Positions 40,248 through 62,461 of a stretch of DNA of 64,000 bases are shown in pieces. Location: contig JAHEZL010000019.1 of NCBI GenBank assembly GCA_023251095.1, positions 1 to 64,000 on the forward strand, in the 5' to 3' direction. Positions within the stretch are counted from its first letter, which is position 1, and every line of letters begins with the position of its first letter. Position numbers and translations under genes: made by a program. The DNA is from Flavobacteriales bacterium. GTDB taxonomy: Bacteria > Bacteroidota > Bacteroidia > Flavobacteriales_C > GCA-002722245. Below the pieces are notes generated by a model. It was not told the origin of the DNA, ran no database searches, and saw nothing but the letters and a program-made list of their open reading frames with translations.

Positions 40248-41552
40248 CTAAGCCACTGAAGTAACCACTTCTTCTACTTTCACCGGTTTTTTAAATCTTG
40301 TCACTAAAACAATCAAACCAACCACTACTGCAATATATCCGATGTATTGGAAAGCTTCAACATAAGTAATAGACTCAGATTTGAATAAAAACCCGAACAT
40401 CATTCCTCCCACATTTCCTCCTGCTCCAACGATACCGCTTACCATACCAACGTTTTTCTCATCTATAAAAGGAACGATAGAGTAAGTAGCTCCATTCCCC
40501 ATTTTAAGGAACATAGCGAAAGAGAACATGCTGATAATAGCCATAGTGAGGTTACCCGACATTGCGAAGAACACCAAACCAATTCCTTCTAATATAATAA
40601 CGATAGCCAACAACCATCCTTTACCTTTCATTCCCCATTTAGCACCAATTTTATCGGCAAAGATTCCTCCCATTGCACGGGCAAAAATATTCATAGCACC
40701 AAAAGCACCTGCCCACATTCCCGCATCACCCTGATCCAATCCGAACTGATCCACAAAGTGCAAAGCAGCAACACCATCAAAAGTTATTTCCATACCGAAA
40801 CAAACCGCATAAGACAAAGCCAAAGCCCAAACTCTCCAGTCTCCCAATACCGACCAGTCGGTTTTTTTACTTGGCAATTGTGATCTTTCAATTTCATCAT
40901 AGTTTCCCTGAGGAGTATCTTTAGTGAATTTGTAGTAAACAAAAGCCATTACCAACATCAATACACCCGGAAAAATCATTGCATATCTCCATGACTCACC
41001 TTTAGTATAGCCCATTCCTACAATAGCAGCAAACAACACTGGCATCAACATATTAGTGATACCGCCACCTAAATTTCCCCAACCACCTGCAACTGCATTG
41101 GCTGTACCTTTTATTTTAGGAGCAAACATCATGGAGGTGTGAAACTGAGTGATAACGAAAGAAGCTCCGATAACACCTATTCCCAAACGGAATAAAAGGA
41201 AAGTCATATAACTATCTGCCAAACCTACACACATTACGGGAATTGATCCGATGATTAATAATGCAGTATATGCTTTACGTGGTCCCCAGGTGTCACACAA
41301 ACGACCAATGAGTAAACGCGCTACAATAGTTGCTGATACGGCGGCTATAATGGTATTTCCCACTTGTCCTTTTGTCAACCCTAATTCGGCACGAATGGTT
41401 GGCATCAATGGCGCCAATCCGAACCAAGCGAAAAAACAGGCAAAAAAGGTTAGCCAGGTAATGTGAAAAGTGCGCATTTGCACGCCTTTAAAACTCAATA
41501 CATTTAATTTCTCGAGGGGTTTGTTTAGTGTTAGGTCATTCTTCATACTCAT
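40248..41552 (-). CDS. narK: Nitrate/nitrite MFS transporter (NarK/NasA family)
   Basis: A 434-aa major-facilitator protein with about 12 membrane segments. Both nitrate-signature motifs are present: GGWGNLGGGITNM (about 155-167) and GIVGAGGNVGGMMFG (about 383-397), which line the substrate pathway in NarK/NrtP. The first MFS loop is VARLLIGRLCDTWGPRK. The protein takes up nitrate, probably with protons or in exchange for nitrite. N-terminal tail includes an alternative start two residues in. A defined promoter and a palindrome lie upstream (41586-41700). Confidence 0.93.
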   Translation of the reverse strand: MSMKNDLTLNKPLEKLNVLSFKGVQMRTFHITWLTFFACFFAWFGLAPLMPTIRAELGLTKGQVGNTIIAAVSATIVARLLIGRLCDTWGPRKAYTALLIIGSIPVMCVGLADSYMTFLLFRLGIGVIGASFVITQFHTSMMFAPKIKGTANAVAGGWGNLGGGITNMLMPVLFAAIVGMGYTKGESWRYAMIFPGVLMLVMAFVYYKFTKDTPQGNYDEIERSQLPSKKTDWSVLGDWRVWALALSYAVCFGMEITFDGVAALHFVDQFGLDQGDAGMWAGAFGAMNIFARAMGGIFADKIGAKWGMKGKGWLLAIVIILEGIGLVFFAMSGNLTMAIISMFSFAMFLKMGNGATYSIVPFIDEKNVGMVSGIVGAGGNVGGMMFGFLFKSESITYVEAFQYIGYIAVVVGLIVLVTRFKKPVKVEEVVTSVA

Positions 41553-41585
41553 TTGTTTTTTTATTAGAACTCAGTTTTGATGTAA

Positions 41586-41646
41586 CAAATGTATTGGGAT
41601 AGTACAGCCTGTACAATGAGATTATACAATGTTTTGATTGTTTATT
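41586..41646 (-). promoter_or_regulatory. narK promoter, nitrate-regulon type I
   Basis: On the coding strand: AATAAACA (41639-41646), TTG (41614-41616), 20 bp, and TACATTTG (41586-41593), a perfect TAnnTTTG box, about 34 bp before the start codon. The conserved AC, TG and CATTG positions lie between. The -33 to -7 spacer carries the extra palindrome GTACAGCCTGTAC (41602-41614). The same architecture occurs before crp1 and the porin gene. Confidence 0.75.
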
Positions 41647-41676
41647 TACAAGTATTATGAAGCGTAAAGACAAAAA

Positions 41677-41700
41677 AAATACTGCCATATGGCAGTATTT
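41677..41700. terminator. Perfect palindrome CTGCC-N4-GGCAG with T tract (terminator or operator)
   Basis: A 24-bp perfect palindrome whose core ACTGCCATATGGCAGT is flanked by A/T tracts. In the minus direction it is followed by eight T, so it suits a terminator for the cld transcript. Its CTGCC-N4-GGCAG core also stands exactly 39 bp before AATAAACA, as in two other nitrate promoters, so it may be an operator. Confidence 0.6.
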
Positions 41701-41716
41701 AAAACGGTCGTTAAAT

Positions 41717-41886
41717 AAAATCCCTCTTGCCATCACACAGAATCCTCCGCACTCTCCCTTTTACAAAGGGAGAAGCCCACACTCATCCATTTTCACAACA
41801 CACTTCAGGTAGTGCCGGCTAACTAACTTCCTCCTTTGTAAAAGGAGGAGTGCAGAGGGTTTTGTGCGAGGGGAAGGAGGATTTTT
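41717..41886. repeat. Long palindromic repeat, family B (copy 2)
   Basis: About 170 bp, imperfectly inverted; left arm CTCCCTTTTACAAAGGGAG, right arm CTCCTTTGTAAAAGGAGG, with the same central GGCTAACTAACTTCCTCCTT as in copy 1. Fills most of the 346-bp gap between cld and narK; the rest of that gap is the narK promoter and palindrome. No ORF in it. Confidence 0.85.
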
Positions 41887-41898
41887 TGTTAGAGAACG

Positions 41899-42459
41899 TC
41901 ATTTTTTCTTCAACCTCACATCCACTTCCCTCTCCACATATTTCCATTCTTCCGTTTTTCTCAGCAAAAAAATAAGCTCATCAAATCTTTCTCTGTTGTT
42001 GGGCGAAAATTCAAACCAGGTTAAAAAATCAAACTCTTCGCCGATGTCTCTGCTGTGAAACAACTGTCGGGAAATAGCCGACAAATACTTCGTACCTATT
42101 TCAATGTGTTTAGAATTCTCCGCCATTATTTTTCGTCTTTCATCCTGCGTAAGCAACCACCATTCTGCATTTTTTTTAATAGGAATAAAAGCAGCAAAAG
42201 TATTTTCAGGTTTTCCTAAAACAGAAGGCTGCTGATCCAAAACAATTTTTTCGGGACGATTAGTATACCTGAGATTACTGGTAAATCCTTTCAATACCCA
42301 ATTGGTGTTTTCGGATTTTTCCACTGAAATATCTTTTACAATATCCATGGAAGAACTTAAAGAAAGACCCTTCCCCACAATTGTTTTAATGGATAAAACA
42401 CTCCATGGTCCGTAGCTCTGACCAACAAAAGAAGTAATGTTTTTTAAATCACTTTCCAT
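41899..42459 (-). CDS. cld: Short (clade 2) chlorite-dismutase-family haem protein
   Basis: A 186-aa protein with the late block of clade 2 chlorite dismutases: EWWLLTQDERRKIM (about 99-112), SKHIEIG (H118, proximal haem ligand), ISRQLFH (R131, the distal catalytic Arg exactly 13 residues later, as in H170/R183 of the Dechloromonas enzyme), DFLTWFEF and TEEWKYVEREVDVRL. Chlorite dismutases decompose chlorite to chloride and oxygen. Nitrate reductases can reduce chlorate to toxic chlorite, so a detoxifying role beside nasC is plausible. No signal peptide, so cytoplasmic. It follows crp1 by 3 bp in one operon. Symbol used by family; activity is untested. Confidence 0.85.
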   Translation of the reverse strand: MESDLKNITSFVGQSYGPWSVLSIKTIVGKGLSLSSSMDIVKDISVEKSENTNWVLKGFTSNLRYTNRPEKIVLDQQPSVLGKPENTFAAFIPIKKNAEWWLLTQDERRKIMAENSKHIEIGTKYLSAISRQLFHSRDIGEEFDFLTWFEFSPNNRERFDELIFLLRKTEEWKYVEREVDVRLKKK

Positions 42460-42462
42460 TTT

Positions 42463-43173
42463 TTAAAAATTAAATTTCTCAATCTCTTTACGCAAAGCAG
42501 CGGCATCAACAATAAAAATATATTTCCCTTCACAATTGATCCATCCTTTATTTTTAAGCGCCGTCAGGGAACGAATCAGTTGTTCACTTTTTGTTCCTGC
42601 AACGTTAGCCAGTTCGGTACGCGACAAAACAAAGCGCAATCCTTTTTCATCCTGACCGAACCGATCGTAAATGGTTAACAAAGTATCAATCACTTTATCT
42701 TTCACATTCATCTGCGCATACCTTTTGGCGCGCGCCTCACTTTTATCCAGTTCATCTGCATAAAACAACATCAAATCGTAAGTGAGCGTGTTGTGTGTTT
42801 GCATTTCATTGGTAAAATATTTGTGGTGAAAATAGCACAGCGTTGTGTTCTCCAAAGCAGTTGCTGCAATAGGATAAACAGTAGCTCTGTTGTAACCGCG
42901 ATGCCCCACAATATCTCCGTCGGCAGCCAAACGAATCACTTGTTCTTTTCCATTCGCACCTGTTCTGGTGACTTTTGCTTTACCCGAATACACGAAAAAA
43001 ATTCCCTGAACCGGTGCACCTTCCATGATAAAAGATTGCGATTTTTTACAATCAATGATATAGCGGTTCGCCACCACATCGGCATAAGAATCGGCATCGT
43101 AATTTTTCTTCATTAAACAAGAAAGATTCTGACACGAAAAACAATCCCCCTTAGTATTATTTTTATTGCTCAT
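42463..43173 (-). CDS. Crp/Fnr regulator with N-terminal Cys cluster (crp1)
   Basis: A 236-aa regulator: C-X2-C-X4-C near the N-terminus (C11, C14, C19) plus C42, then a cNMP-like beta-roll, dimer helix and winged helix (LSRTELANVAGTKSEQLIRS). The four-Cys layout resembles the cluster ligands of FNR (C-X2-C-X5-C and a fourth Cys), so an oxygen- or NO-labile Fe-S cluster is possible. The recognition helix keeps E and R (S-E-Q-L-I-R) that contact the central G of FNR/CRP half-sites but lacks the usual SR. Very similar to the regulator at 48710-49414. First gene of the crp1-cld operon, with its own promoter of the nitrate type. Confidence 0.88.
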   Translation of the reverse strand: MSNKNNTKGDCFSCQNLSCLMKKNYDADSYADVVANRYIIDCKKSQSFIMEGAPVQGIFFVYSGKAKVTRTGANGKEQVIRLAADGDIVGHRGYNRATVYPIAATALENTTLCYFHHKYFTNEMQTHNTLTYDLMLFYADELDKSEARAKRYAQMNVKDKVIDTLLTIYDRFGQDEKGLRFVLSRTELANVAGTKSEQLIRSLTALKNKGWINCEGKYIFIVDAAALRKEIEKFNF

Positions 43174-43201
43174 CGTAGTTGGTTTGGGTCGGTTAAAAAA
43201 T

Positions 43202-43262
43202 CAAAGTTAATCGCTCAGTGTTGTGAATCCTATGTCAGGAGACAGCGTGCAAAATGTTTATT
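43202..43262 (-). promoter_or_regulatory. crp1-cld promoter, nitrate-regulon type I
   Basis: On the coding strand: AATAAACA (43255-43262), TAG in place of TTG (43230-43232), 20 bp, TAACTTTG (43202-43209; a perfect TAnnTTTG box), 28 bp before the start. Spacing is identical to the narK and porin promoters, including the conserved AC, TG and CAT positions. Confidence 0.75.
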
Positions 43263-43290
43263 CCCAATACGGAAAAGTATAAATGCAATA

Positions 43291-43318
43291 AAAAAAGCTG
43301 CCTTTCGACAGCTTTTTT
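43291..43318 (-). terminator. Terminator after nrtD (CTGYC-N4-GGCAG hairpin)
   Basis: AAAAAAGCTG ... CAGCTTTTTT, with the core CTGTCGAAAGGCAG on the minus strand, beginning 6 bp after the nrtD stop and followed by T's. It also stands exactly 39 bp before the AATAAACA box of the crp1 promoter, so it may have a second role. Confidence 0.75.
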
Positions 43319-43323
43319 CACAC

Positions 43324-44130
43324 CTACTTTTTATACACCATTCCCATATCTTCAATCGAGAATTTATCGGTTAAGAGATGTAATAATCTATCTCTTAATT
43401 CAATATATTCAGGCGTTTTTACTATTTCAATTTTGTTTCTCGGACGAGCTAAATGAACATGTTCAATCTCTTTAATGGTTGCAGCCGGACCGTCATTCAT
43501 CACCACAATTCTGTCGGATAAAAATATAGCTTCCTCAATATCGTGCGTGATCATGATAATGGTTTTATCTCTTCCACTTAAGTTCCACAACTTCAATAAT
43601 TCCAATTGCATTGTACCTTTCGTTAAGGCATCCAAAGCGCCAAATGGCTCATCCAGCAACAACACTCCGGGATTTATGGCAAAGGCTCTTGCAATTGCAA
43701 CTCTTTGTTTCATACCGCCCGAAAGCTGTCCGGGTAATTTATCTTTGTGCTGCATTAAATTCACCATCTCCAGATTCTGAAGTACAATTTCCTGTTTTTC
43801 TTTTTTAGAACAATCCATCACCGCGTCCACCGCCTGATAAATGTTTTGATACACAGACATCCATGGCAACAGCGAATAATTTTGAAAAACGATGCCTCGG
43901 TCGGGTCCCGGACCTTTAATCGTTTTCCCCATCAGCTCCACACTTCCGCCTGTGGGTGTATTCATTCCTGCAATGGCATTCATGATGGTAGATTTTCCGC
44001 AACCCGAATGTCCGATGATGGAAATGATTTCTCCTTTTTCAATGGATAAATTAATATCTCTCACCGCAATGTATTTTCCTTTCGGAGTGGGAAAGGAAAT
44101 TTCTAAATTTTTTATTTCTAAATAACTCAT
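43324..44130 (-). CDS. nrtD: Nitrate ABC transporter ATP-binding protein (NrtD-like)
   Basis: A 268-aa ABC ATPase of the NrtD/SsuB/TauB group. Walker A GHSGCGKST (about 39-47), Q-loop FQNYSLLPW (about 82-90), signature LSGGMKQR (about 136-143), Walker B VLLLDEPFGALD (about 155-166) and H-loop MITHDIEEA (about 191-199). It powers the NrtB permease. The gene lies 12 bp after nrtB and is the last gene of the porin-nrtA-nrtB-nrtD operon. Only one ATPase is present; NrtC-type fusion is absent, so a NrtD homodimer is likely. Confidence 0.9.
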   Translation of the reverse strand: MSYLEIKNLEISFPTPKGKYIAVRDINLSIEKGEIISIIGHSGCGKSTIMNAIAGMNTPTGGSVELMGKTIKGPGPDRGIVFQNYSLLPWMSVYQNIYQAVDAVMDCSKKEKQEIVLQNLEMVNLMQHKDKLPGQLSGGMKQRVAIARAFAINPGVLLLDEPFGALDALTKGTMQLELLKLWNLSGRDKTIIMITHDIEEAIFLSDRIVVMNDGPAATIKEIEHVHLARPRNKIEIVKTPEYIELRDRLLHLLTDKFSIEDMGMVYKK

Positions 44131-44142
44131 AGTAAAATATTT

Positions 44143-45021
44143 TTAGGCCTTGTAAGACACTTTGTTTTCAATCAATGTAAATAGCTTATCGAAGAGTAAT
44201 CCCACAATTCCAATGATCAGAATTGCCGATATAACTCTTTCTAAACTCAACGCATTCCAGCTGTCCCATACAAAGAAGCCGATACCTGCACCTCCCGACA
44301 ACATCTCACCTGCCACAATCACCAACCACGCCACACCTATACTCAAACGCAAACCTGTTATGATATGTGGTAGCGCATACGGAATCAAAATTTTTCTCAG
44401 GTAACGCATTTTTGAAAAGCCAAAAGCCTTCGCCACATTTTTATGATCCTGAGGAATAGATCCCACACCAAAAGCGGTGTTGATTAAAGTTGACCACAAG
44501 GAAGTAATGAAGATGATAAAGATTGTTGCCATATCAGAATCTTTAAAAACTACCAATCCTATAGGGAACCATGCCAGAGGCGAAACCGGTTTTAACAATT
44601 GAACAATAGGATAAAAAATTTGTTTTCCTATGTTACTTGCTCCCATTAATATTCCAATTGGAATGGCAATTACCGATCCGATGGAAAAGCCTAATAACAC
44701 CCGTCCGATAGAACTTCCCAATTGTAATCCTATCCCTTTGTCATTCGGTCCGTAATCGTAAAAAGGATCGCTCAACATTTCAAAGAACACCGTGAAAGTT
44801 GCAGCCGGAGTTGGCAAATCTCCTTCGGTGTAAGAACTCAACCATTCCCACAATCCGCCGCACAAAAACAATCCCACACAAGCAAAAAATATTGATTTTG
44901 CATATTTAAGTACATTTGAAAAAAACGCTTTTCTTTTATAATTGGTAGTTTCACCACCATTGCTTTCTTTCGAAACTCCCTTAGTTTCGATATCTGCCGT
45001 TAATGTTTCTGTGTCCGTCAT
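44143..45021 (-). CDS. nrtB: Nitrate ABC transporter permease (NrtB-like)
   Basis: A 292-aa integral membrane protein with an N-terminal charged tail and about six membrane segments, including the EAA-type loop (about 180-215: GVGSIPQDHKNVAKAFGFSK) that contacts the ATPase. Typical of SsuC/NrtB permeases. It follows nrtA after a 129-bp gap that contains a stem-loop, unlike the close spacing elsewhere in the operon, so expression may be lower than that of the binding protein. Confidence 0.9.
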   Translation of the reverse strand: MTDTETLTADIETKGVSKESNGGETTNYKRKAFFSNVLKYAKSIFFACVGLFLCGGLWEWLSSYTEGDLPTPAATFTVFFEMLSDPFYDYGPNDKGIGLQLGSSIGRVLLGFSIGSVIAIPIGILMGASNIGKQIFYPIVQLLKPVSPLAWFPIGLVVFKDSDMATIFIIFITSLWSTLINTAFGVGSIPQDHKNVAKAFGFSKMRYLRKILIPYALPHIITGLRLSIGVAWLVIVAGEMLSGGAGIGFFVWDSWNALSLERVISAILIIGIVGLLFDKLFTLIENKVSYKA

Positions 45022-45064
45022 CTTTTTAAAATTAAATACATTTACTATTTATTTTTCATAAAAA

Positions 45065-45139
45065 TGGCTGTCATTCGGACGAAGGAAGGATCTATTGCCC
45101 TTCACACATTAGATATTTCCTTCGTCAGGAAGACAGCCA
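45065..45139. repeat. REP-like stem-loop between nrtA and nrtB (family C)
   Basis: Three nested inverted blocks: TGGCTGTC / GACAGCCA (45065-45072, 45132-45139), CGAAGGAA / TTCCTTCG (45080-45087, 45117-45124) and ATCT / AGAT. The GTCATTCGGACGAAGGAA sequence resembles a repeat often met in Bacteroidota. On the minus strand a run of T follows, so it may act as a partial terminator that keeps nrtA above nrtB. Confidence 0.75.
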
Positions 45140-45150
45140 CCATTGTTTTT

Positions 45151-46383
45151 TTAGTGCGTTGCTACCTTCAGGTAAGCCGCCGGATTCAAAGGATCGAAAA
45201 TTGTTTTCGGATCTATCGTCAGTGAAAATGGTTTCATGTCATCTTCCGGAACTTTCACCTTCATAGCTGCTGCTACTTCTTTGTATAAATCCTGCATAAT
45301 TAATTTATCGGCAATTGCTTTGTAATCAGGAGGAGTAGTTAAATACCCGAATCTTACATATTGCGCCATCGCCCATATAGCATAAGATTTACGAGGGAAG
45401 TTTACTGTTCCGCCTTTGTGGAACGACATGTATTCTTTGTTGGAATACACTTGTAATCCCTGACTGCATCCCAAATCATAATTACCCATCAATCTGTTTT
45501 CAATCACGTCGGCAGGAGCATTTACGTAAGGAGCTTTACCGATGATACCCGCAGCTTTTTTACGATTGGCCGGATTATCCAACCAGATACAAGCCTCCAT
45601 AATCGCCATCATTACTTTTTTCAATTCTTCTCTTCGTTTCTCGCTGAATTCTTTGTTCACCACAAATGCTTTTTCAGGATGATCTCTCCAGATGTCTTGA
45701 GAAGCAATTTGTGTAAAGCCTACTCCTTGTTTCACTGCAACACCACCCCATGGTTCACCTACACAGTATCCGTCCATGTTTCCTACTTTCATGTTGGCTA
45801 CCATTTGTGGTGGCGGGATAGTAATAATCTTTGTTGTTTTTTGACTCACACCTGCAGCGGCCATCCAGTTACGCAACCACAAATCGTGGGTTCCACCCGG
45901 AAAAGTCATTGCAAAGGTTACTTCTTTTTCTGCTTTCAGTTTTGCAGCAACAACAGGCGCAACTTTATTCATTTGTTTGAAGCCCACTTTTCCGCAAAAA
46001 TCATTGGATAAGGTAATCGCTTGTCCGTTAACATTCAACATCATTGCGATTTTCATTTCCGATCCGGCTTTACCCCCAACACCTGTGTACACTGAAAAAG
46101 GCATGGAGTACAAACAGTGCGCGCCATCCAATTCACCTGTTAAAATTTTGTCGCGAACGTTGGCCCATGACGCTTCTTTTGTCACCACAACCTCCACTCC
46201 ATATTTGGCAAACAATCCCAATTCTTTTGCCATCACAATCGGTGAACAATCGGTTAGTGGAATAAATCCTAATTTGATTGGTTCCGCTGCTGCAAAGGGT
46301 TTGAACCCTGCGCAGAAAACTATTAACATTGCCATCACCGCAGAGGTGAAGAACAAAGTTTTTGTTGATTTTCCTTTTTTCAT
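45151..46383 (-). CDS. nrtA: Nitrate ABC transporter substrate-binding protein (NrtA-like)
   Basis: A 410-aa periplasmic binding protein. A signal/anchor (about 9-32) is followed by the NrtA/CmpA-type fold: IKLGFIPLTDCSPIVMAKELGLF (given by FIPLTDCSPIV, about 38-50), DGAHCLYSMPF (about 84-94), TFPGGTHDLWLRNWM (about 159-173) and GYCVGEPWGG (about 205-214), all of which line the ligand site in NrtA. It binds nitrate or nitrite for NrtB/NrtD. Begins 25 bp after the porin gene. Confidence 0.92.
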   Translation of the reverse strand: MKKGKSTKTLFFTSAVMAMLIVFCAGFKPFAAAEPIKLGFIPLTDCSPIVMAKELGLFAKYGVEVVVTKEASWANVRDKILTGELDGAHCLYSMPFSVYTGVGGKAGSEMKIAMMLNVNGQAITLSNDFCGKVGFKQMNKVAPVVAAKLKAEKEVTFAMTFPGGTHDLWLRNWMAAAGVSQKTTKIITIPPPQMVANMKVGNMDGYCVGEPWGGVAVKQGVGFTQIASQDIWRDHPEKAFVVNKEFSEKRREELKKVMMAIMEACIWLDNPANRKKAAGIIGKAPYVNAPADVIENRLMGNYDLGCSQGLQVYSNKEYMSFHKGGTVNFPRKSYAIWAMAQYVRFGYLTTPPDYKAIADKLIMQDLYKEVAAAMKVKVPEDDMKPFSLTIDPKTIFDPLNPAAYLKVATH

Positions 46384-46408
46384 TTTTCTAGGTTTTAGTT
46401 TAAGTAAA

Positions 46409-47782
46409 TTATTTCGCTAATAAATTTGGTTTAAATACCACTTGTAAATAAGCCCAGTTTGCGTTGAGATTAGCATTCGCAACATTTTTAACTTGTGCCG
46501 ATGACATTGTTGTAGTAGCCTGCATCATTGAGTATCCTGCTTCGATGTTGATCAGCTTGGTTAAGTTGTATCTCACTATAAAATCGATTTCTGTTCCTAA
46601 ATATGGATTTCTGGTTCCACCTTTTCCATCGGAAACTTTGTTGGCCGTTTCAAAACCATGAACATCTAATAAGAAAGTCAGATTGTCTTTTGCGTTATAT
46701 TTTATTTTAAAGAACAAATCCACCAATCCTTGTTTACCGAAACCACTTGCTACATAGAAATAATCCATATAACCCCAGAATTTATGCGGAGTACCGTACA
46801 ATGGGTCGAAGCGTGAGTTCACAGAATTTGCTCTCGTTCCGTTGTCGCCTGATAAATAATCGAAACCCGGACCCACAAATAATTTTCTTCCCAATTGCAT
46901 TGATGTGGTAACAGATGCCATTTCAGCACTCATGTTTACACCATCTTTATCTTGTCCACCTTGGTGATAGTAGCTTGCTATGATGTTTAATTTTCTTTTG
47001 ATGGTTGCATCCAAATACACACCTGTTGTATATCTGCTCCAAACACCGGCTCCGTAATTGGTCGCTCCCGCCAATGTTTTAGTGTACTTACTGAAATCAT
47101 CTTTAAAGCAGAGGAAAGAAGCATTACCGAAGAAAAACTTTTTACCTACATATAAGTATTGCATTGATTTGTACATGGTACCGATGGCATTGGTACCGGC
47201 TGTATAATTGGCAGGTGCAGGTACACCAACGTAACCCGCATCGGCATTGAGCTCCTTGTTTTGATTGTAGGCAACTCCCAAATCAGCCATCCAGGTTTTA
47301 TCAGCGAATCTTAAAACAGCAGCGTCATGTCTTCTTCCTTGTTGCAACCAATCTAATCCCCCGAGTAGTTTTTGGTCATCGTAAGAAATTTCCTGACGTC
47401 CTATTTTAAGAGATAAATTTTGAATTTTACTTTTTGGCGCTGTATCATTTAAAATGATTTCCCCCCATGCTTCGTTCATCATTAATCCGTTGAACACCTC
47501 ATTGGTTGTTCTATTATTGGTAGAGGCATCTTGCCCCCAAACTCTTGCATCCTGTATAGAAGCAAATACTTTAAAACGATAGCCTGTGTATCCAACATTA
47601 AATCGCGTTCGTTCAGAGATAAAAAAAGCCGGAACTGCTTTACCCGACATCAACGTTCCTTGTCCCTGACGATACTCCGATCTGGTTCGGATTTGCGCAG
47701 TAGCAGTGAGCTGCGCATTCATTTGAATTGTCGACAATAATGTCAAACAACCTGCTGCGAAAATTTGTAATCTTTTTTTCAT
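46409..47782 (-). CDS. Alginate-export-family outer-membrane porin
   Basis: A 457-aa outer-membrane beta-barrel with a signal peptide (about 1-24, IQMNAQ) and the start of alginate_exp family barrels (TATAQIRTRSEYRQGQGT, SERTRFNVGYTGYRFKVFASIQDARVWGQ; given by RTRFNVGY and QDARVWGQ). Barrel strands continue to the C-terminus (YLQVVFKPNLLAK). Heads the porin-nrtA-nrtB-nrtD operon, so it most likely lets nitrate through the outer membrane; alginate export is not meant. Has its own nitrate-type promoter. Confidence 0.85.
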   Translation of the reverse strand: MKKRLQIFAAGCLTLLSTIQMNAQLTATAQIRTRSEYRQGQGTLMSGKAVPAFFISERTRFNVGYTGYRFKVFASIQDARVWGQDASTNNRTTNEVFNGLMMNEAWGEIILNDTAPKSKIQNLSLKIGRQEISYDDQKLLGGLDWLQQGRRHDAAVLRFADKTWMADLGVAYNQNKELNADAGYVGVPAPANYTAGTNAIGTMYKSMQYLYVGKKFFFGNASFLCFKDDFSKYTKTLAGATNYGAGVWSRYTTGVYLDATIKRKLNIIASYYHQGGQDKDGVNMSAEMASVTTSMQLGRKLFVGPGFDYLSGDNGTRANSVNSRFDPLYGTPHKFWGYMDYFYVASGFGKQGLVDLFFKIKYNAKDNLTFLLDVHGFETANKVSDGKGGTRNPYLGTEIDFIVRYNLTKLINIEAGYSMMQATTTMSSAQVKNVANANLNANWAYLQVVFKPNLLAK

Positions 47783-47836
47783 CTTCTTCAGTTTTAGTTT
47801 TTACTAGGTCTCAAATAATTAATTTTTTCGTTTCAA

Positions 47837-47897
47837 CAAATTTAGATCTGAAGCCCATAGTATTCAATGACAGTCTGCAGAGTAGAGAATGTTTATT
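47837..47897 (-). promoter_or_regulatory. Porin-nrtABD promoter, nitrate-regulon type I
   Basis: On the coding strand: AATAAACA (47890-47897), TTG (47865-47867), 20 bp, TAAATTTG (47837-47844; perfect TAnnTTTG). The AATAAACA block lies in the palindrome GAGAATGTTTATTCTC (47885-47900), centred about 60 bp before the transcription start by the usual -33/-7 numbering, a class I activator position. Leader about 50 nt. Confidence 0.78.
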
Positions 47898-47924
47898 CTC
47901 AACAAGAAATGAATGGAATGGAAT

Positions 47925-47955
47925 GAAAAAATCTGCCGAAGCGCAGTTCTTTTTT
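47925..47955 (-). promoter_or_regulatory. CTGCG-N4-GGCAG hairpin before the porin promoter
   Basis: On the minus strand CTGCGCTTCGGCAG (47933-47946), preceded by A/T and followed by ATTTTTT. It looks like a terminator but has no co-directional gene just upstream to terminate (crp2 ends 755 bp away), and stands exactly 39 bp before AATAAACA. That favours an operator role. Confidence 0.5.
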
Positions 47956-48002: not shown

Positions 48003-48551
48003 ATGAAATCACGAGTCCTTACTTCAATCGTTTTATTCTTTGTTTTTGTTAATGCTACAGCACAGCAAAAAGATAGTAGTAGCATTATAGGCGGTGCCGG
48101 ACTTTCTGCGGAATACATATATGCTAACCGACAAGGATTTAATGTTGGAATAGGGATTTGCGGATACAGCAAAGGAAAAAAGTGGTATGAAAGTTCCGAG
48201 CGATATAACTTAAAAGGAATCAAGGGACAGAAAGCAGTGGAGTTATATCCTAAACCTATATATATTGGATTCAATCAGGGTGTACTATTTCAAAACAACA
48301 GTTCTCAAACATTGATTAACAATTCGCAATTGCAATTGTTTATTGCATTACAGGCTGTATCATTTGGAACGCGTTTAACTTATTATACCGATTATAAAAC
48401 TCATAGTCAGGCAGCGCTCACTAGTGAATTAGGTTTAGGATGGCGACATGTTTTTGTGAAAGGCCAGTACAATTATTATCTCTTCAATATCAATCCTTTT
48501 GCATTGCCCAAGTTTACTCTTGCGGCACAAGTGATTTTTCTTTTGAAGTAA
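48003..48551 (+). CDS. Small exported barrel-like protein, unknown function
   Basis: A 182-aa protein with a signal peptide (about 1-21, NATAQQ) and short amphipathic beta strands (GLSAEYIYANRQGFNVGIGI, TELGLGWRHVFVKGQYNYYLF; given by AEYIYANRQ and GWRHVFVKG), ending FLLK. It is the only plus-strand gene within the nitrate island and lies between the porin promoter and the family B repeat. Relation to nitrate metabolism unknown; may be an inserted passenger. Confidence 0.65.
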   Translation: MKSRVLTSIVLFFVFVNATAQQKDSSSIIGGAGLSAEYIYANRQGFNVGIGICGYSKGKKWYESSERYNLKGIKGQKAVELYPKPIYIGFNQGVLFQNNSSQTLINNSQLQLFIALQAVSFGTRLTYYTDYKTHSQAALTSELGLGWRHVFVKGQYNYYLFNINPFALPKFTLAAQVIFLLK

Positions 48552-48553
48552 TT

Positions 48554-48710
48554 AAATCCCTCTGCCTGCGCACAGAATTCCCTCGCACCTCCCTTTTTCA
48601 AAGGGAGAAGTGCACACTCATCCATACTTAAATAATGGTTTTCAGGGCATGGGCCTCTCCCTTTGAAAAAGGGAGGTGCGAGGGAATTCTGTGCGCAGGC
48701 AGAGGGATTT
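48554..48710. repeat. Long palindromic repeat, family B (copy 3), perfect 55-bp arms
   Basis: Arms 48554-48608 and 48656-48710 are exact 55-bp reverse complements, starting AAATCCCTCTGCCTGCGCAC, with a 47-bp loop. Each arm ends in the CTCCCTTTTTCAAAGGGAG mini-hairpin of the family. The right arm touches the stop codon of crp2 (48710-48712), so it terminates or stabilises the end of the long nirD-to-crp2 transcript. Perfect arms mark it as the youngest or best-maintained copy. Confidence 0.92.
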
Positions 48711-49414
48711 TAATAATTATACTCCTGAATTTCTTTTCTTAAAAGATCTACTTTTTTAAGCAAGATATGTTTGCCTTCACAGTTGATCACGCCTTCATTT
48801 TTCAAAGTCATCAACACACGAATCACCTGCTCACTATTGGTTCCGGCTAAGTTGGCAATATCAGTTCGCGATAAAACCAGTTTCAATCCCTCGTCATCCT
48901 GACCGAATCTTTCATAAATGCTCAATAAGGAATCCACCACTTTTTCTCTCACCGTCATTTGCGCGAATTTTTTTACACGCTCTTCGGTTTTATCCAGCTC
49001 CTCCGCATAAAAAACCATGAGGTCATAAGTCAGTGTGCTGTTTGTTTGCAACTCATTGGTGAAAAATTTATTGGGGAAATAACACAGTGTTGTAGGCTCT
49101 AATGCTGTTGCAGCAATTGGATATACCTTGCGACTTGAATATCCTCTGATTCCAATGATATCACCATCACCGGTTAAACGTAAAATTTGTTCTTTGCCAT
49201 TATAACCCGACTTCGTGATTTTTGCCTTACCCGAATAAACAAAGTACATTCCGTGAATAGGCGCACCTTCAATAATAAAGGATTGCGATTTTTTACATTC
49301 AATTACCATGCGGTTTGCAACTGCTGTTGCATAATTATCAGCCGCATAATTTTTCTTCATCAGGCAAGAAAGATTCTCGCACGAAACACAATTTCCAACT
49401 TCTTCTTTTTTCAT
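48710..49414 (-). CDS. Crp/Fnr regulator with N-terminal Cys cluster (crp2)
   Basis: A 234-aa paralog of crp1 with the same C-X2-C-X4-C-X22-C pattern (C9, C12, C17, C40), the same beta-roll and a nearly identical recognition helix (LSRTDIANLAGTNSEQVIRV). The two proteins align end to end without gaps. It is the last gene of the nirD-nasC-moa operon, 11 bp after mobA, so it is produced together with the reductase and Moco enzymes and may feed back on the island's promoters. Confidence 0.88.
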   Translation of the reverse strand: MKKEEVGNCVSCENLSCLMKKNYAADNYATAVANRMVIECKKSQSFIIEGAPIHGMYFVYSGKAKITKSGYNGKEQILRLTGDGDIIGIRGYSSRKVYPIAATALEPTTLCYFPNKFFTNELQTNSTLTYDLMVFYAEELDKTEERVKKFAQMTVREKVVDSLLSIYERFGQDDEGLKLVLSRTDIANLAGTNSEQVIRVLMTLKNEGVINCEGKHILLKKVDLLRKEIQEYNY

Positions 49415-55302: not shown

Positions 55303-58300
55303 TTAAACTGTTACCGGCACTGTTATTTCCTCCATCACTTTATCAAAAATACTTTGAACCTCAGGCTTACAGCTTCCGCAGCCCATTCCGGCGCCTGCGA
55401 GCTGACACAATTTTTTAAAGTCGTGGCAACCTTCTTTGATTTTATTTTCCAGATTTCCTTCACCCACACTTCCGCAACTGCACACCAGTTTACCAATCAC
55501 AGGTTCGGCTTTATTTCCTGAACGCAATAAACTTAAGCGTTTTTCCGACAGCTCCATTTTATTTTGAATAAGTTCACGGAATTCTAAAAATTCTGATTTA
55601 TCACCAATTAAAATAGCGCCAATCAATCTATCGTTGTGAATGATACATTTTTTGTAATAGCGTTTGGATTTATCAATAAACACCACCTCTTCATAAGCCG
55701 GATCATCAGGACATTCCACCTCACCCAGAGAACATAAATCGGTGCCATGCATTTTCAAAATATTCATGAGCAAGGATCCGCTGTAATATTTGGAAATATC
55801 ACCACTTAAATATCGCGCAACGATCTCAGCTTGCTGTTCGGCGGCGGCAGTGATGCCATATAAAAAGCCTTTGAATTCGGCTATTTCACCAATGGCGAAA
55901 ATGTTTGGATCGGAAGTCTGCAGATATTCATCCACCACCACTCCACGTTTTACATCCATACCGCAAGCCCTTGCCAATTCAACATTCGGAGCAGTACCAA
56001 TAGCGATTACGATAGCCTGACAGGGGATAGTCAAACCACTCTTTAAATCGATACCTTCTATTGTTTCTTTTCCTAAAAATCTGCTGATCTCATCATTGAA
56101 ATAAAAATCAATTCCTTTGTCTCTTAATTCTTCATACAACAACTGACTGCCTAAAGCATCCAGCTGACGGTCCATTAAACGTGAAATACGCTGAACCACC
56201 GTTACCTCAACATTCACCTCACGAAGTGAAGCAGCCAATTCAATACCAAGCAATCCGCCACCCACTATCACTACCTTTCCTTTTGCAGGATCAATGTGAT
56301 TTTTAAAATCATCGGCATCCACTCTGCTGCGCATGGTGAAAATTCCTTTCATTGGCGGAATGTCTTTTAATAATGCAGCGCGACTTCCCGTAGCCATCAG
56401 CAACACGTCATAATTATGTACTGCGCCTTTGCTATCGGTAACTGTTTTCATTTGGCGGTTGATGCTCTCCACGCCCACACCTCTGTGCAAAGTAATGTTG
56501 TGCGATTTTTCTTCCTCATCATTCATCTTCACCAACTGCTCCCATTTTTGAACACCGCTGATATAATCGGGCAACATTACACGATTGTAAAAAGGGAAAT
56601 TCTCCTTGCTGAAAACTACTATTTCATCTTCTTTATTTAATTCACGATAAGATTTTACAAATCCGTAAGATCCGGCACCGGCACCAATTACAATAACTTT
56701 TTGTTTGTGTTTTTTATAAACTACAACTTGTGCTGCAGAGAATTTAAAATCGGGTTCTTTAGATCGGGAGTCTACTAAATTATTGGTGAGATTGTTCACG
56801 CGATTCAAATCGCTCGTCAACACTTTTCCCCAGTGCATTGGCATAAACACAACACCTTTTTTTATGTCGGCAGTTAATTTTGCTTTTACTCTAACGTTAC
56901 CTCTGGTAGTAAAAACTTCAACTAAAGTATTTTCATCAATCCCTCTTTTTGCGGCATCTTCAGGATGAATTTCCACAAAAGATTCAGAAATATGTTGTTT
57001 CAGTTTATTTACTTTTCCGGTTTTGCTCATCGTGTGCCACTGGTCGCGGATACGGCCTGTGGTGAGCACCAAAGGAAAATCCGGACTCAGTTTCTCCGAT
57101 TCATTTGCATCAGGAAAACTGTGGATCATTGCTCTTTTAGATGCTGTATAAAACTGGTGATCGGTAAACAAACGCGGTGTTCCAAAACCTTCAGATCCTT
57201 TTGGATAAGGCCATTGAACACTTCTCTTCTCTTTCAGAATATCATAACTCAATCCTGAAATATCAATATTGGTTCCTTCTGTTGAAGCGCAATGCTCAGC
57301 ATAAATTTCAGAAGCGTTTTGAAAATCAAAACCGGAGAATTTCATTTTTTTTGCGAAGCGGCAAATGATTTCAGAGTCCGGCAAAGCTTCACCGGGAGCG
57401 TCCATCATTTTGGACAAATGCGCGATTCTTCTTTCGGCATTCGTCATTGTTCCTTCCTTCTCCGTCCAAGCAGCAGCCGGCAAAACAACATCGGCATATT
57501 TTAAAGTTTCCAGTTTATTGGTGATGTCTTGCACCACCACAAACTTTGCTTTTTTCAATCCTTCTTCAGCAATGCGCACATCAGGAATACTGATGAGTGG
57601 ATTGGTACAAACGATCCATATTGCTTTTAATTTTCCGCTGTTTAAGGCCTCAAACATTTCGGTGGCAGTCAGTCCCGGTTTTTCAGGAACGCTTGGTACT
57701 CCCCAGAATTTAGCTACTTCGGCACGGTGCGCAGGATCAGCTAAATTTCGGTGAGCAGATAGTAAATTGGCCATTCCTCCAACTTCTCTTCCACCCATGG
57801 CGTTGGGTTGTCCCGTTAATGAAAACGGACCGGAACCGGGTTTACCAATATGGCCGGTAATTAAATTTAGATTAATTAAACTCAGATTTTTATTTACACC
57901 GATTACACTTTGGTTCAAGCCCATCGTCCACATCGTGATAAAACCTTTTGCGTCTCCGATATAGGATGCAGCCAAACGGATATTTTCTACAGGCACTCCG
58001 CAAATTTCAGAAGCTTCTTCCAAAGTGCGCTCCATCACGGTTGATTTGTATTTATCAAAACCTTCGGCGTGATCAATGATGAAGTTCTCATCGATTTTTC
58101 CGGCTTCAATCAAACATCTTCCGATGGCGTGATGCAAAGTAACATCCGTTCCCGGATTCAATTGCAAATGAACATTGGCGTATGCACAGGTTTGTGTTTT
58201 ACGCGGATCACTTACGATGATTTTTAAGTTCGGATTTTTTTCTCTCGCCTGCTCTACTCTTCTCCAAATGATGGGGTGACACCAGGCAGGATTTGCCCCG

Positions 58301-58812
58301 GCAACAAAAATACAGTCGGCAATTTCCAAATCGTCATAGGTGACAGGAACACTGTCTTCCCCTAATGACAACTTGTATCCAACCACCGCACTGCTCATAC
58401 ATAATCTTGAATTGGTATCAAGATTATTACTTCCTATATATCCTTTGATGATTTTATTAATGACATAATACTCCTCGGTGAGACATTGTCCTGAAGCATA
58501 AAATGCCACCGAATCGGGACCGTATTTATCGATAATCGTTTTAAACACAGCAGCTGTTCGCTCTAAAGCCTGATCCCACGAAACCCTTTGACGGGGGAGG
58601 GCTTTACTGTAACGCATCTCGGGATATAGTAACCTATCGGTGGCATCCATTACCGTGTAATGAAGATTCATCCCTTTTGAACAAAGCATTCCTTTGTTCA
58701 CGGGATGATCTTTATCACCTTCAACGGAGATTTTTCCTTGTCGATCTTTATGCACAACAATTCCGCAGCCTACTCCACAATAACAACACGTTGTTTTAAA
58801 AGATTCACTCAT
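55303..58812 (-). CDS. nasC: Assimilatory nitrate reductase, Mo-bis-MGD with FAD/NAD(P) and BFD modules in one chain
   Basis: A 1169-aa enzyme that reduces nitrate to nitrite in the cytoplasm. Domains: N-terminal [4Fe-4S] (CCYCGVGCGIVV, about 9-20), Mo-bis-MGD catalytic part (about 40-690) with the probable Mo-ligand Cys in NSRLCMSSAV (about residue 140), a nitrite-reductase-type FAD/NAD(P)H module (about 700-1090; VIVIGAGAGSYGF at 704 and VVIVGGGLLGIELAAS at 844) and a BFD-type [2Fe-2S] (about 1105-1155; VCSCGSV ... GMGCGSCKPEV). The chain could thus accept NAD(P)H directly. It lies 3 bp after nirD and 4 bp before the rubredoxin gene. No twin-arginine signal, so cytoplasmic. Confidence 0.92.
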   Translation of the reverse strand: MSESFKTTCCYCGVGCGIVVHKDRQGKISVEGDKDHPVNKGMLCSKGMNLHYTVMDATDRLLYPEMRYSKALPRQRVSWDQALERTAAVFKTIIDKYGPDSVAFYASGQCLTEEYYVINKIIKGYIGSNNLDTNSRLCMSSAVVGYKLSLGEDSVPVTYDDLEIADCIFVAGANPAWCHPIIWRRVEQAREKNPNLKIIVSDPRKTQTCAYANVHLQLNPGTDVTLHHAIGRCLIEAGKIDENFIIDHAEGFDKYKSTVMERTLEEASEICGVPVENIRLAASYIGDAKGFITMWTMGLNQSVIGVNKNLSLINLNLITGHIGKPGSGPFSLTGQPNAMGGREVGGMANLLSAHRNLADPAHRAEVAKFWGVPSVPEKPGLTATEMFEALNSGKLKAIWIVCTNPLISIPDVRIAEEGLKKAKFVVVQDITNKLETLKYADVVLPAAAWTEKEGTMTNAERRIAHLSKMMDAPGEALPDSEIICRFAKKMKFSGFDFQNASEIYAEHCASTEGTNIDISGLSYDILKEKRSVQWPYPKGSEGFGTPRLFTDHQFYTASKRAMIHSFPDANESEKLSPDFPLVLTTGRIRDQWHTMSKTGKVNKLKQHISESFVEIHPEDAAKRGIDENTLVEVFTTRGNVRVKAKLTADIKKGVVFMPMHWGKVLTSDLNRVNNLTNNLVDSRSKEPDFKFSAAQVVVYKKHKQKVIVIGAGAGSYGFVKSYRELNKEDEIVVFSKENFPFYNRVMLPDYISGVQKWEQLVKMNDEEEKSHNITLHRGVGVESINRQMKTVTDSKGAVHNYDVLLMATGSRAALLKDIPPMKGIFTMRSRVDADDFKNHIDPAKGKVVIVGGGLLGIELAASLREVNVEVTVVQRISRLMDRQLDALGSQLLYEELRDKGIDFYFNDEISRFLGKETIEGIDLKSGLTIPCQAIVIAIGTAPNVELARACGMDVKRGVVVDEYLQTSDPNIFAIGEIAEFKGFLYGITAAAEQQAEIVARYLSGDISKYYSGSLLMNILKMHGTDLCSLGEVECPDDPAYEEVVFIDKSKRYYKKCIIHNDRLIGAILIGDKSEFLEFRELIQNKMELSEKRLSLLRSGNKAEPVIGKLVCSCGSVGEGNLENKIKEGCHDFKKLCQLAGAGMGCGSCKPEVQSIFDKVMEEITVPVTV

Positions 58813-59166: not shown

Positions 59167-59197
59167 ATTACTCTTTTCGTTAAGTTGTTTTCCCAAA

Positions 59198-59217
59198 AAA
59201 CTGCCTTTTCGCAGTTT
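59198..59217 (-). terminator. Terminator-like leader hairpin before nirD
   Basis: On the minus strand AAACTGCGAAAAGGCAGTTT followed by further T, a 7- to 9-bp stem with a 6-base loop and a U tract. It lies about 30 nt upstream of the nirD ATG but downstream of the predicted promoter at 59247-59277, so it would sit in the 5' leader. It may stop read-through from nirB-nrtS or act as an attenuator. The core CTGCGAAAAGGCAG matches the palindromes of the type I nitrate promoters. Confidence 0.55.
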
Positions 59218-59246
59218 CTAACTTGTAAATCGTCACTTACATAATT

Positions 59247-59311
59247 TAAATTTAGAAATATTTAAACACAAAAGCAAAAAAAAGTATAAATATATTTTAG
59301 ACTAGCCTAAA
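59247..59311 (-). promoter_or_regulatory. nirD operon promoter, nitrate-regulon type II
   Basis: On the coding strand: inverted repeat TTTAGGCTAGTCTAAA (59296-59311), TTG (59275-59277), 20 bp and TAAATTTA (59247-59254; one mismatch to TAnnTTTG). 21 bases from 59248 to 59268 are identical to 62297-62317 before nirB, and the upstream element is also conserved (18 of 23 positions by eye) at nearly the same distance. Confidence 0.65.
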
Positions 59312-59400
59312 TATTTAATTCAACAAACTAAAAATACTGAGACATCAAGGCTTACAGAAGGTCACTTCAAAAATCAAAAACTCACAGAATCATTGATTTA

Positions 59401-62149: not shown

Positions 62150-62461
62150 AGGATTTTATATAATACAACTACGCATTTGTTTTAAAAATTAACAGGATAT
62201 TCTGTATCAATTCAAGAAAATCACTATCAATAATCCGTTTACCATTTCTCTTTGAATCATAAGGGTATAATTAAAATGTTAGAACTTCATATAATCAAAT
62301 TTAGAAATATTTAAACAAAAATCAAACATTTTTCAATAATTATTTTTTGCTTGTCTAAATTTTAAATTTAACAACTGAAAACCCATTACTAAATCAATGG
62401 AACAATAATTGCTTTTAAGTTCACGTACCTTTTTATTACATTTAAATTCAAATCATTTTTT
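62150..62461. other. 312-bp divergent intergenic region before nirB and a small secreted protein gene
   Basis: No gene seen. It holds the nirB promoter (62296-62360), a leader of about 140 nt with the weak palindrome ACAGGATATTCTGT (62192-62205), and the unassigned start region of the plus-strand gene at 62462, for which no clear TAnnTTTG box was identified. Confidence 0.6.
62296..62360 (-). promoter_or_regulatory. nirB-nrtS promoter, nitrate-regulon type II
   Basis: On the coding strand: TTG (62323-62325), exactly 19 bp, and TAAATTTG (62296-62303), both consensus. An upstream conserved block with ATTTAGACAAG (about 62350-62360) matches the nirD promoter's ATTTAGGCTAG. The 21-base core 62297-62317 is identical to nirD's. 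Confidence 0.72.

Follow-up and report, generated by a model that had tools for sequence, protein, structure and literature searches.

The window analyzed here, a 64,000-nucleotide stretch of contig C8 from a 3.59-Mb assembly of the class Bacteroidia with a close relative in the Lake Pavin metagenome, contains a nitrate island in which three promoters, those of narK, crp1-cld, and porin-nrtABD, share one and the same array of sites. Each array consists of three 14-base-pair (bp) sites of the form xTGNN-N4-NNCAx, i.e., with a 5-4-5 layout. The center-to-center distance is 44 bp between sites 1 and 2 and 22 bp between sites 2 and 3 in all three promoters. The center of site 3 is located 29.5 bp from the T of the TAnnTTTG box (-7 box) in this genome and its relatives (8/8 promoters, three species). 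We consider it likely that these are activator-dependent promoters with three in-phase Crp/Fnr-type sites, probably bound by Crp1 and Crp2, two regulators encoded in the island itself, and that they form a dedicated nitrate-uptake circuit. The arrays lie on the minus strand at 41695–41586 (narK), 43311–43202 (crp1-cld), and 47946–47837 (porin-nrtABD), and their elements are as follows.

41682–41695, minus strand: narK site 1, center about -107.5, CTGCC-ATAT-GGCAG, hairpin-forming and followed by a T-run
41638–41651, minus strand: narK site 2, center about -63.5, TTGTA-AATA-AACAA
41616–41629, minus strand: narK site 3, center about -41.5, TTGTA-TAAT-CTCAT, overlapping the -33 TTG
41586–41593, minus strand: narK -7 box, TACATTTG, predicted start near 41581, box register from PMC9723704
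43298–43311, minus strand: crp1-cld site 1, CTGTC-GAAA-GGCAG, strong hairpin flanked by an A-tract and a T-tract
43254–43267, minus strand: crp1-cld site 2, TTGGG-AATA-AACAT
43232–43245, minus strand: crp1-cld site 3, CTGTC-TCCT-GACAT
43202–43209, minus strand: crp1-cld -7 box, TAACTTTG, predicted start near 43197
47933–47946, minus strand: porin-nrtABD site 1, CTGCG-CTTC-GGCAG, between divergent genes, weak hairpin
47889–47902, minus strand: porin-nrtABD site 2, TTGAG-AATA-AACAT
47867–47880, minus strand: porin-nrtABD site 3, CTGCA-GACT-GTCAT
47837–47844, minus strand: porin-nrtABD -7 box, TAAATTTG, predicted start near 47832

The original prediction, made from the window alone, had described a rigid composite promoter in which a 5-4-5 palindrome of the Crp/Fnr type keeps a constant distance to downstream elements. 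This architecture is supported, and all of the spacings given for it are exact in the three promoters: the start of GGCAG lies 40 bp from the A of AATAAACA (39 bp when counted from GCAG), AATAAACA lies 53 bp from TAnnTTTG, and the proposed TTG/TAG-N20-TAnnTTTG is found in each case. The AATAAACA block had been regarded as an element of its own near -60. Its position is indeed conserved, but the block is the right half of a second Crp/Fnr-like 14-bp site, TTGNN-AATA-AACAW, centered at -63.5, since a TTG stands 5 bp 5' of it in all three promoters (TTGTAAATAAACAA, TTGGGAATAAACAT, TTGAGAATAAACAT). Similarly, the TG at +19/20 and the CAT at +29 to +31 of this block are conserved, yet not as separate letters: they belong to the two half-sites of site 3, a 14-mer at +18 to +31, whose outer letters include this TG and, at +29/30, the CA. 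The start-site map of Flavobacterium psychrophilum places the TAnnTTTG box at positions -12 to -5 (PMC9723704). With this register, which is taken from another organism, the three centers fall at about -107.5, -63.5, and -41.5. The intervening 22-bp slot at -85.5 is vacant, as no conserved half-sites were seen there by eye in the aligned linkers.

The specificity of the array was assessed by genome-wide pattern searches with a built-in reversed control. Within the 3.59-Mb genome, TTGNNAATAAACA-N45-TANNTTTG is matched perfectly at three places and no more, namely the three promoters. No match was found in this genome at one mismatch, and all other matches appear at two mismatches, like those of the control. 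For the full array pattern (three sites plus TAnnTTTG, 18 fixed bases), the expected number in a genome of 3.5 Mb is 1.6e-4 to 3.7e-4. A search of 395 genomes gave eight perfect matches, of which the source genome (G000) and G003 have three each and G004 has two. The other 392 genomes contain none at zero mismatches. All eight matches, from three species of a single genus, sit upstream of narK (three), porin-nrtABD (three), or crp1 (two). The pattern was derived from six of these promoters; the remaining two matches, found blind in G003 and G004, turned out to be the promoters of the narK orthologues. When the -7 box was left out, the three-site pattern added one chance-like match each in G003 and G004. 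The palindrome alone is unspecific: CTGYSN4RGCAG occurs 85 times on both strands of G000, many of the matches lying within a repeat family of ~170 bp. The spacing of the array is more than chance.

The array is also well preserved in two sister species. The original prediction was to count as refuted if the distances differed, or the palindrome was missing, in related genomes; in the two sister species, the composite survived, with zero indels over the 109-bp array among orthologous promoters. The identity of the 30-bp linker drops to 40% between orthologous promoters (narK and porin, G000 versus G004), and the leader between the -7 box (TTTG) and the start codon ATG can be as short as 27 or as long as 54 nucleotides. 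The mean information per column is 1.45–1.55 bits in the sites, 0.7–0.85 bits in the linkers, and about 0.5–0.6 bits in the flanks. In the narK promoter of G004, both ends of site 2 have changed together, from TTG..CAA to CTG..CAG; this paired change would suit a dyad read by a dimer.

The nitrate island comprises narK, a chlorite-dismutase-like gene, crp1, nrtD, nrtB, nrtA, a porin gene (alginate-export type), and crp2, together with molybdenum-cofactor genes, a gene in which a NasA-type nitrate reductase is joined to a NirB-like domain, nirD, and nirB. The putative targets and the regulators of the array are the following.

40248–41552, minus strand: narK, nitrate/nitrite transporter of the major facilitator superfamily, putative array target (TIGR00886, 311.3 bits against a cut-off of 311.7)
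41899–42459, minus strand: cld-like gene (chlorite dismutase/HemQ superfamily), putative array target, co-transcription with crp1 judged by position
42463–43173, minus strand: crp1, Crp/Fnr-family regulator (cNMP_binding and HTH_Crp_2), recognition helix 196-SEQLIR-201
43324–47782, minus strand: porin-nrtA-nrtB-nrtD nitrate uptake operon, putative array target
48710–49414, minus strand: crp2, paralogue of crp1, recognition helix SEQVIR

Crp1 and Crp2 share 66% sequence identity. Both contain the cNMP_binding and HTH_Crp_2 domains above the Pfam cut-off and four cysteines in the arrangement C-x2-C-x4-C-x22-C; they are the two Cys-type Crp/Fnr regulators that the original prediction had placed in the island. 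The predicted recognition helix is SEQ[LVT]IR, with E197 and R201 invariant in an alignment of 23 relatives, and the model of Crp1 matches Crp/Fnr structures, with Porphyromonas gingivalis 2gau as the best PDB match (TM-score, a measure of fold similarity, of 0.84). Orthologues of both proteins are present in G000, G003, and G004, i.e., in all array-bearing genomes, and these are the only species of the genus with both island paralogues. G001 and G002 have neither the array nor an orthologue of Crp1 or Crp2; they contain a distant paralogue alone (24–27% identity). Crp1 and Crp2 are the probable ligands of the array sites. Since crp1 itself carries an array, auto-regulation is likely. Crp1 and Crp2 score 58–62 bits with the NCBIfam FNR model (cut-off of 228), and Crp2 scores 24.8 bits with the NtcA model (cut-off of 244.95).

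In Escherichia coli, -41.5 is the class II position of Crp and FNR activators. A 5-4-5 inverted site with a TG..CA core is centered at this position in 8/8 promoters when the register of PMC9723704 is applied; the 29.5 bp between site 3 and TAnnTTTG correspond to class II geometry if the T is -12, as in the map of F. psychrophilum. Like the class II/III Crp/FNR promoters of E. coli, the array has 5-4-5 sites, a proximal site at -41.5 over a weak -33/-35 element, and upstream sites on a similar face of the DNA. It differs from yfiD and acsP2, the examples named in PMC3050613, in its adjacent 22-bp pair, its third site at 44 bp, and its TAnnTTTG promoter, whereas the sites of these E. coli examples are well separated (FNR at -93.5 at yfiD). 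The pioABC promoter of Rhodopseudomonas palustris is likewise a class II Crp/FNR promoter in which a proximal box is joined by a related one further upstream, but its FixK boxes (-44.5 and -137.5) are 93 bp apart without forming a three-site array, and in gel shifts FixK bound only the proximal box (PMC3050613). Herbaspirillum seropedicae has two paralogous Fnr proteins, Fnr1 and Fnr3, with hybrid asymmetric half-sites and heterodimers inferred from them; unlike in the arrays, the authors describe one site in each of the co-regulated promoters and no further tandem sites (PMC5934665). Cyanobacterial NtcA is also a Crp-family activator of nitrate assimilation that acts from about -41.5, at a GTAN8TAC box (PMC3898017). 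No such box is present near -41.5 in the eight promoters, whose three sites are TGN8CA, and the array sites (YTGNN-N4-NNCAN) do not match the FNR sites TTGAT-N4-ATCAA either, as they do not keep the third base of FNR. A search of an open-access library found no description of Crp/Fnr activator placement on -33/-7 promoters of Bacteroidota.

We propose that a dimer of Crp1 and/or Crp2 on site 3 (about -41.5, over the weak -33 element) would contact RNA polymerase in a class II-like manner, activating rather than repressing transcription. A second dimer on site 2, 22 bp upstream, would stabilize the first or add contacts, and binding may be cooperative; as 22 bp are two helical turns, neighboring dimers would be adjacent to each other and share one face of the DNA. 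Site 1, the strongest dyad, lies four turns (44 bp) further upstream at -107.5, leaving the 22-bp slot at -85.5 empty, and might serve in recruitment or fine-tuning. Repression from site 1 is conceivable as well, as at E. coli yfiD, which FNR down-regulates from -93.5 (cited in PMC3050613). Crp1 and Crp2 may act as homo- or heterodimers; the asymmetric sites 2 and 3 would suit heterodimers, for which Fnr1/Fnr3 of Herbaspirillum are a precedent (PMC5934665). The circuit would thereby turn on narK, porin-nrtABD, and Crp1 itself in a positive feedback, with nirB and nirD-narB on other promoters. Candidate signals are nitrate/nitrite, nitric oxide, and oxygen or redox state via the cysteines.

Outside the genus, one-mismatch matches of the array resembled pairs of TGA-N6-TCA. 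A doublet search with free gaps (19 x 19 = 361 gap combinations, 247 genomes) revealed TGAN6TCA pairs before TAnnTTTG in 141 of the 247 genomes against about 15 control matches. Among the 100 distinct matches listed, some of them in orthologous promoters, 56 reproduce the gaps of the nitrate promoters (10 bp and 23 bp) exactly, and the next combinations occur 8, 7, and 6 times. In 296 genomes across the phylum, the exact doublet gave 39 matches in 22 genomes and none in the control; 20 of these 22 genomes belong to the same class, Bacteroidia. The genes downstream, identified by eye, include those of the cbb3 oxidase (ccoN), a ccoI-type ATPase, cytochrome c, universal stress proteins, and a hemerythrin-like protein (examples at loci L204, L206, L211, and L217). 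These doublets have the -63.5/-41.5 geometry of the nitrate arrays before TAnnTTTG. They differ in their TGA..TCA half-sites and in the genes that they precede, which are microaerobic rather than nitrate genes. Moreover, a -33 TTG is absent from most of them, and no conserved third site was found at any upstream offset in 27 examples. The shared geometry therefore indicates that the nitrate arrays use a general Bacteroidia doublet layout and combine it with different half-sites and one further, distal site.

With moderate confidence, we extend this to the view that Crp/Fnr activation in Bacteroidia is hard-wired as a pair of dimers 22 bp apart (-63.5/-41.5, TAnnTTTG). The nitrate arrays would be an expansion of this pair (2 + 1 sites in 22-bp units) in one genus with duplicated Cys-type regulators of new half-site specificity, the distal site being a terminator as well at two of the three promoters. 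A keyword search of a limited open-access library yielded nothing relevant on Fnr doublets in Bacteroidota. We did not find the class-wide doublet geometry described, multi-site Crp/Fnr promoters as such being already known. In some cases, a single doublet seems to act for two divergent promoters (G205:C11:986315-986410 and G636:C1:1378362-1378457). On contig C33 of G000 (L211:3868-6125), a REC domain is fused to a Crp/Fnr protein (352 amino acids) next to a PAS histidine kinase; two TGAN6TCA doublets lie near this gene, whose product is possibly a two-component Crp for the class-wide doublets.

The palindromes of site 1 might instead be ordinary terminators that end the preceding operon and merely lie next to promoters, with a coincidental common spacing. 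Same-strand genes indeed end upstream of narK and crp1 in G000 and G003, and the GC-rich hairpins with T-runs at these four places, typical of intrinsic terminators, fold far better than shuffled sequences (z-scores of -5.6 for narK and -5.9 for crp1 in G000, and -4.1 and -3.4, respectively, in G003). Site 1 thus probably doubles as a terminator at narK and crp1. Nevertheless, coincidence is very improbable: the 44-bp center spacing is identical in eight promoters, and the upstream neighbor of porin-nrtABD is divergent in 3/3 species, which leaves nothing to terminate. The porin hairpins are weaker (z-scores of -0.5, -2.9, and -2.7 in the three species). The T-run is missing at the G004 porin promoter and broken at G004 narK, with the distance of the 14-bp dyad unchanged in both, and where no gene ends the dyad is neither absent nor free in position but fixed in 3/3 porin promoters. 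Because its distance is unchanged where the T-run is missing or broken, and between divergent genes, the dyad is kept as DNA. A pure terminator was accordingly rejected on account of the porin promoters, which lie between divergent genes, and of the T-run that G004 porin lacks; both also support the original view of the palindrome as more than a terminator. Given the hairpins and T-runs at narK and crp1, the terminator and operator readings are not mutually exclusive.

Among operator readings, Crp1 and Crp2 might occupy sites 2 and 3 only, with site 1 (CTGYS-N4-GGCAG) serving another protein, e.g., a nitrogen-status regulator, or acting in down-regulation as at yfiD. Compared with sites 2 and 3, site 1 shows greater symmetry and a different composition (CTGCC/GGCAG), and the class-wide doublets have two sites only; yet it keeps the 5-4-5 layout, the TG/CA core, and the exact 44-bp phase, and site 2 of G004 narK is itself CTG-N8-CAG, like site 1. 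We regard such a division of labor as unlikely. It is also quite unlikely that the sites, although of the Crp/Fnr type, are read by the REC-Crp fusion on C33 or another global regulator in place of Crp1 and Crp2. The distant paralogue occurs in all three array-bearing genomes too; in G000 it is this REC-cNMP-HTH fusion, which is encoded near the two doublets and keeps E and R in its recognition helix (ETTIR). However, G001 and G002 have the distant paralogue without an array, and it probably recognizes sites of the TGA..TCA kind, whereas the majority of half-sites in the arrays read TGC, TGT, or TGG or the complement of one of these. Several observations weigh against the activator array bound by Crp1 and Crp2 that we favor. 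Its half-sites show degeneracy outside TG/CA, there is asymmetry in sites 2 and 3, and the array is limited to the three species mentioned. Known class III spacings explain neither the empty slot nor the role of site 1. E. coli FNR has its cysteine ligands in a C-x2-C-x5-C motif near the N-terminus plus a distant Cys, and the spacing in Crp1 and Crp2 differs from this. Finally, Flavobacterium has a single Crp2 orthologue (40–50% identical) beside the same operon with a different promoter, and G005, from a sister genus, has a 42% identical homologue and no array; ligand and operator are therefore not linked over longer distances.

The array is not general to nitrate promoters. On reading the window, it was not seen upstream of nirB or nirD-narB, and neither array nor doublet geometry is present in the other nrtA loci fetched (mostly from Flavobacterium and Cytophagales). 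In most Flavobacterium porin-nrtABD promoters, a palindrome of the type TAC(G/T)TAAGTATTAATAC(T/G)TA occupies the -33/-7 spacer. As a Crp2 orthologue adjoins the operon there, the operator has been replaced between lineages. An alignment of 44 such promoters (L031-L109) contains a conserved TACGTAAGTATTAATACTTACGTA-like palindrome in this spacer and no -33 TTG, which suggests another nitrate operator. Within the window, nirD-narB and nirB have a conserved promoter stretch in common, TTTTGTGTTTAAATATTTCTAAATTTRAWTAT, which is distinct from the array (59190-59330 and 62250-62350), and the nirD leader carries CTGCGAAAAGGCAGTTTTTT (59214-59195) between promoter and start codon, a possible attenuator. 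The nitrate reductase at 55303-58812 combines a NasA-type molybdopterin domain with a NirB-like FAD/NAD and [2Fe-2S] region in a single chain of 1169 amino acids. The ~170-bp repeat, which has inverted ends and dozens of copies in the genome, is found at 41714-41886 and 48553-48710, the latter copy lying between crp2 and the gene at 48003.

If the proposed layout is correct, a fixed 22-bp doublet placed 29.5 bp before TAnnTTTG would give the geometry of Crp/Fnr activators from sequence alone in Bacteroidota, a phylum rich in unstudied Crp/Fnr proteins. Regulons for the cbb3 oxidase, nitrate uptake, and stress proteins would then be predictable in uncultured members with few false matches. The nitrate array would exemplify the growth of an operator alongside the duplication of its regulator, in which spacing is kept while sequence drifts, and its site 1 would be a DNA dyad that may also act as an RNA terminator.

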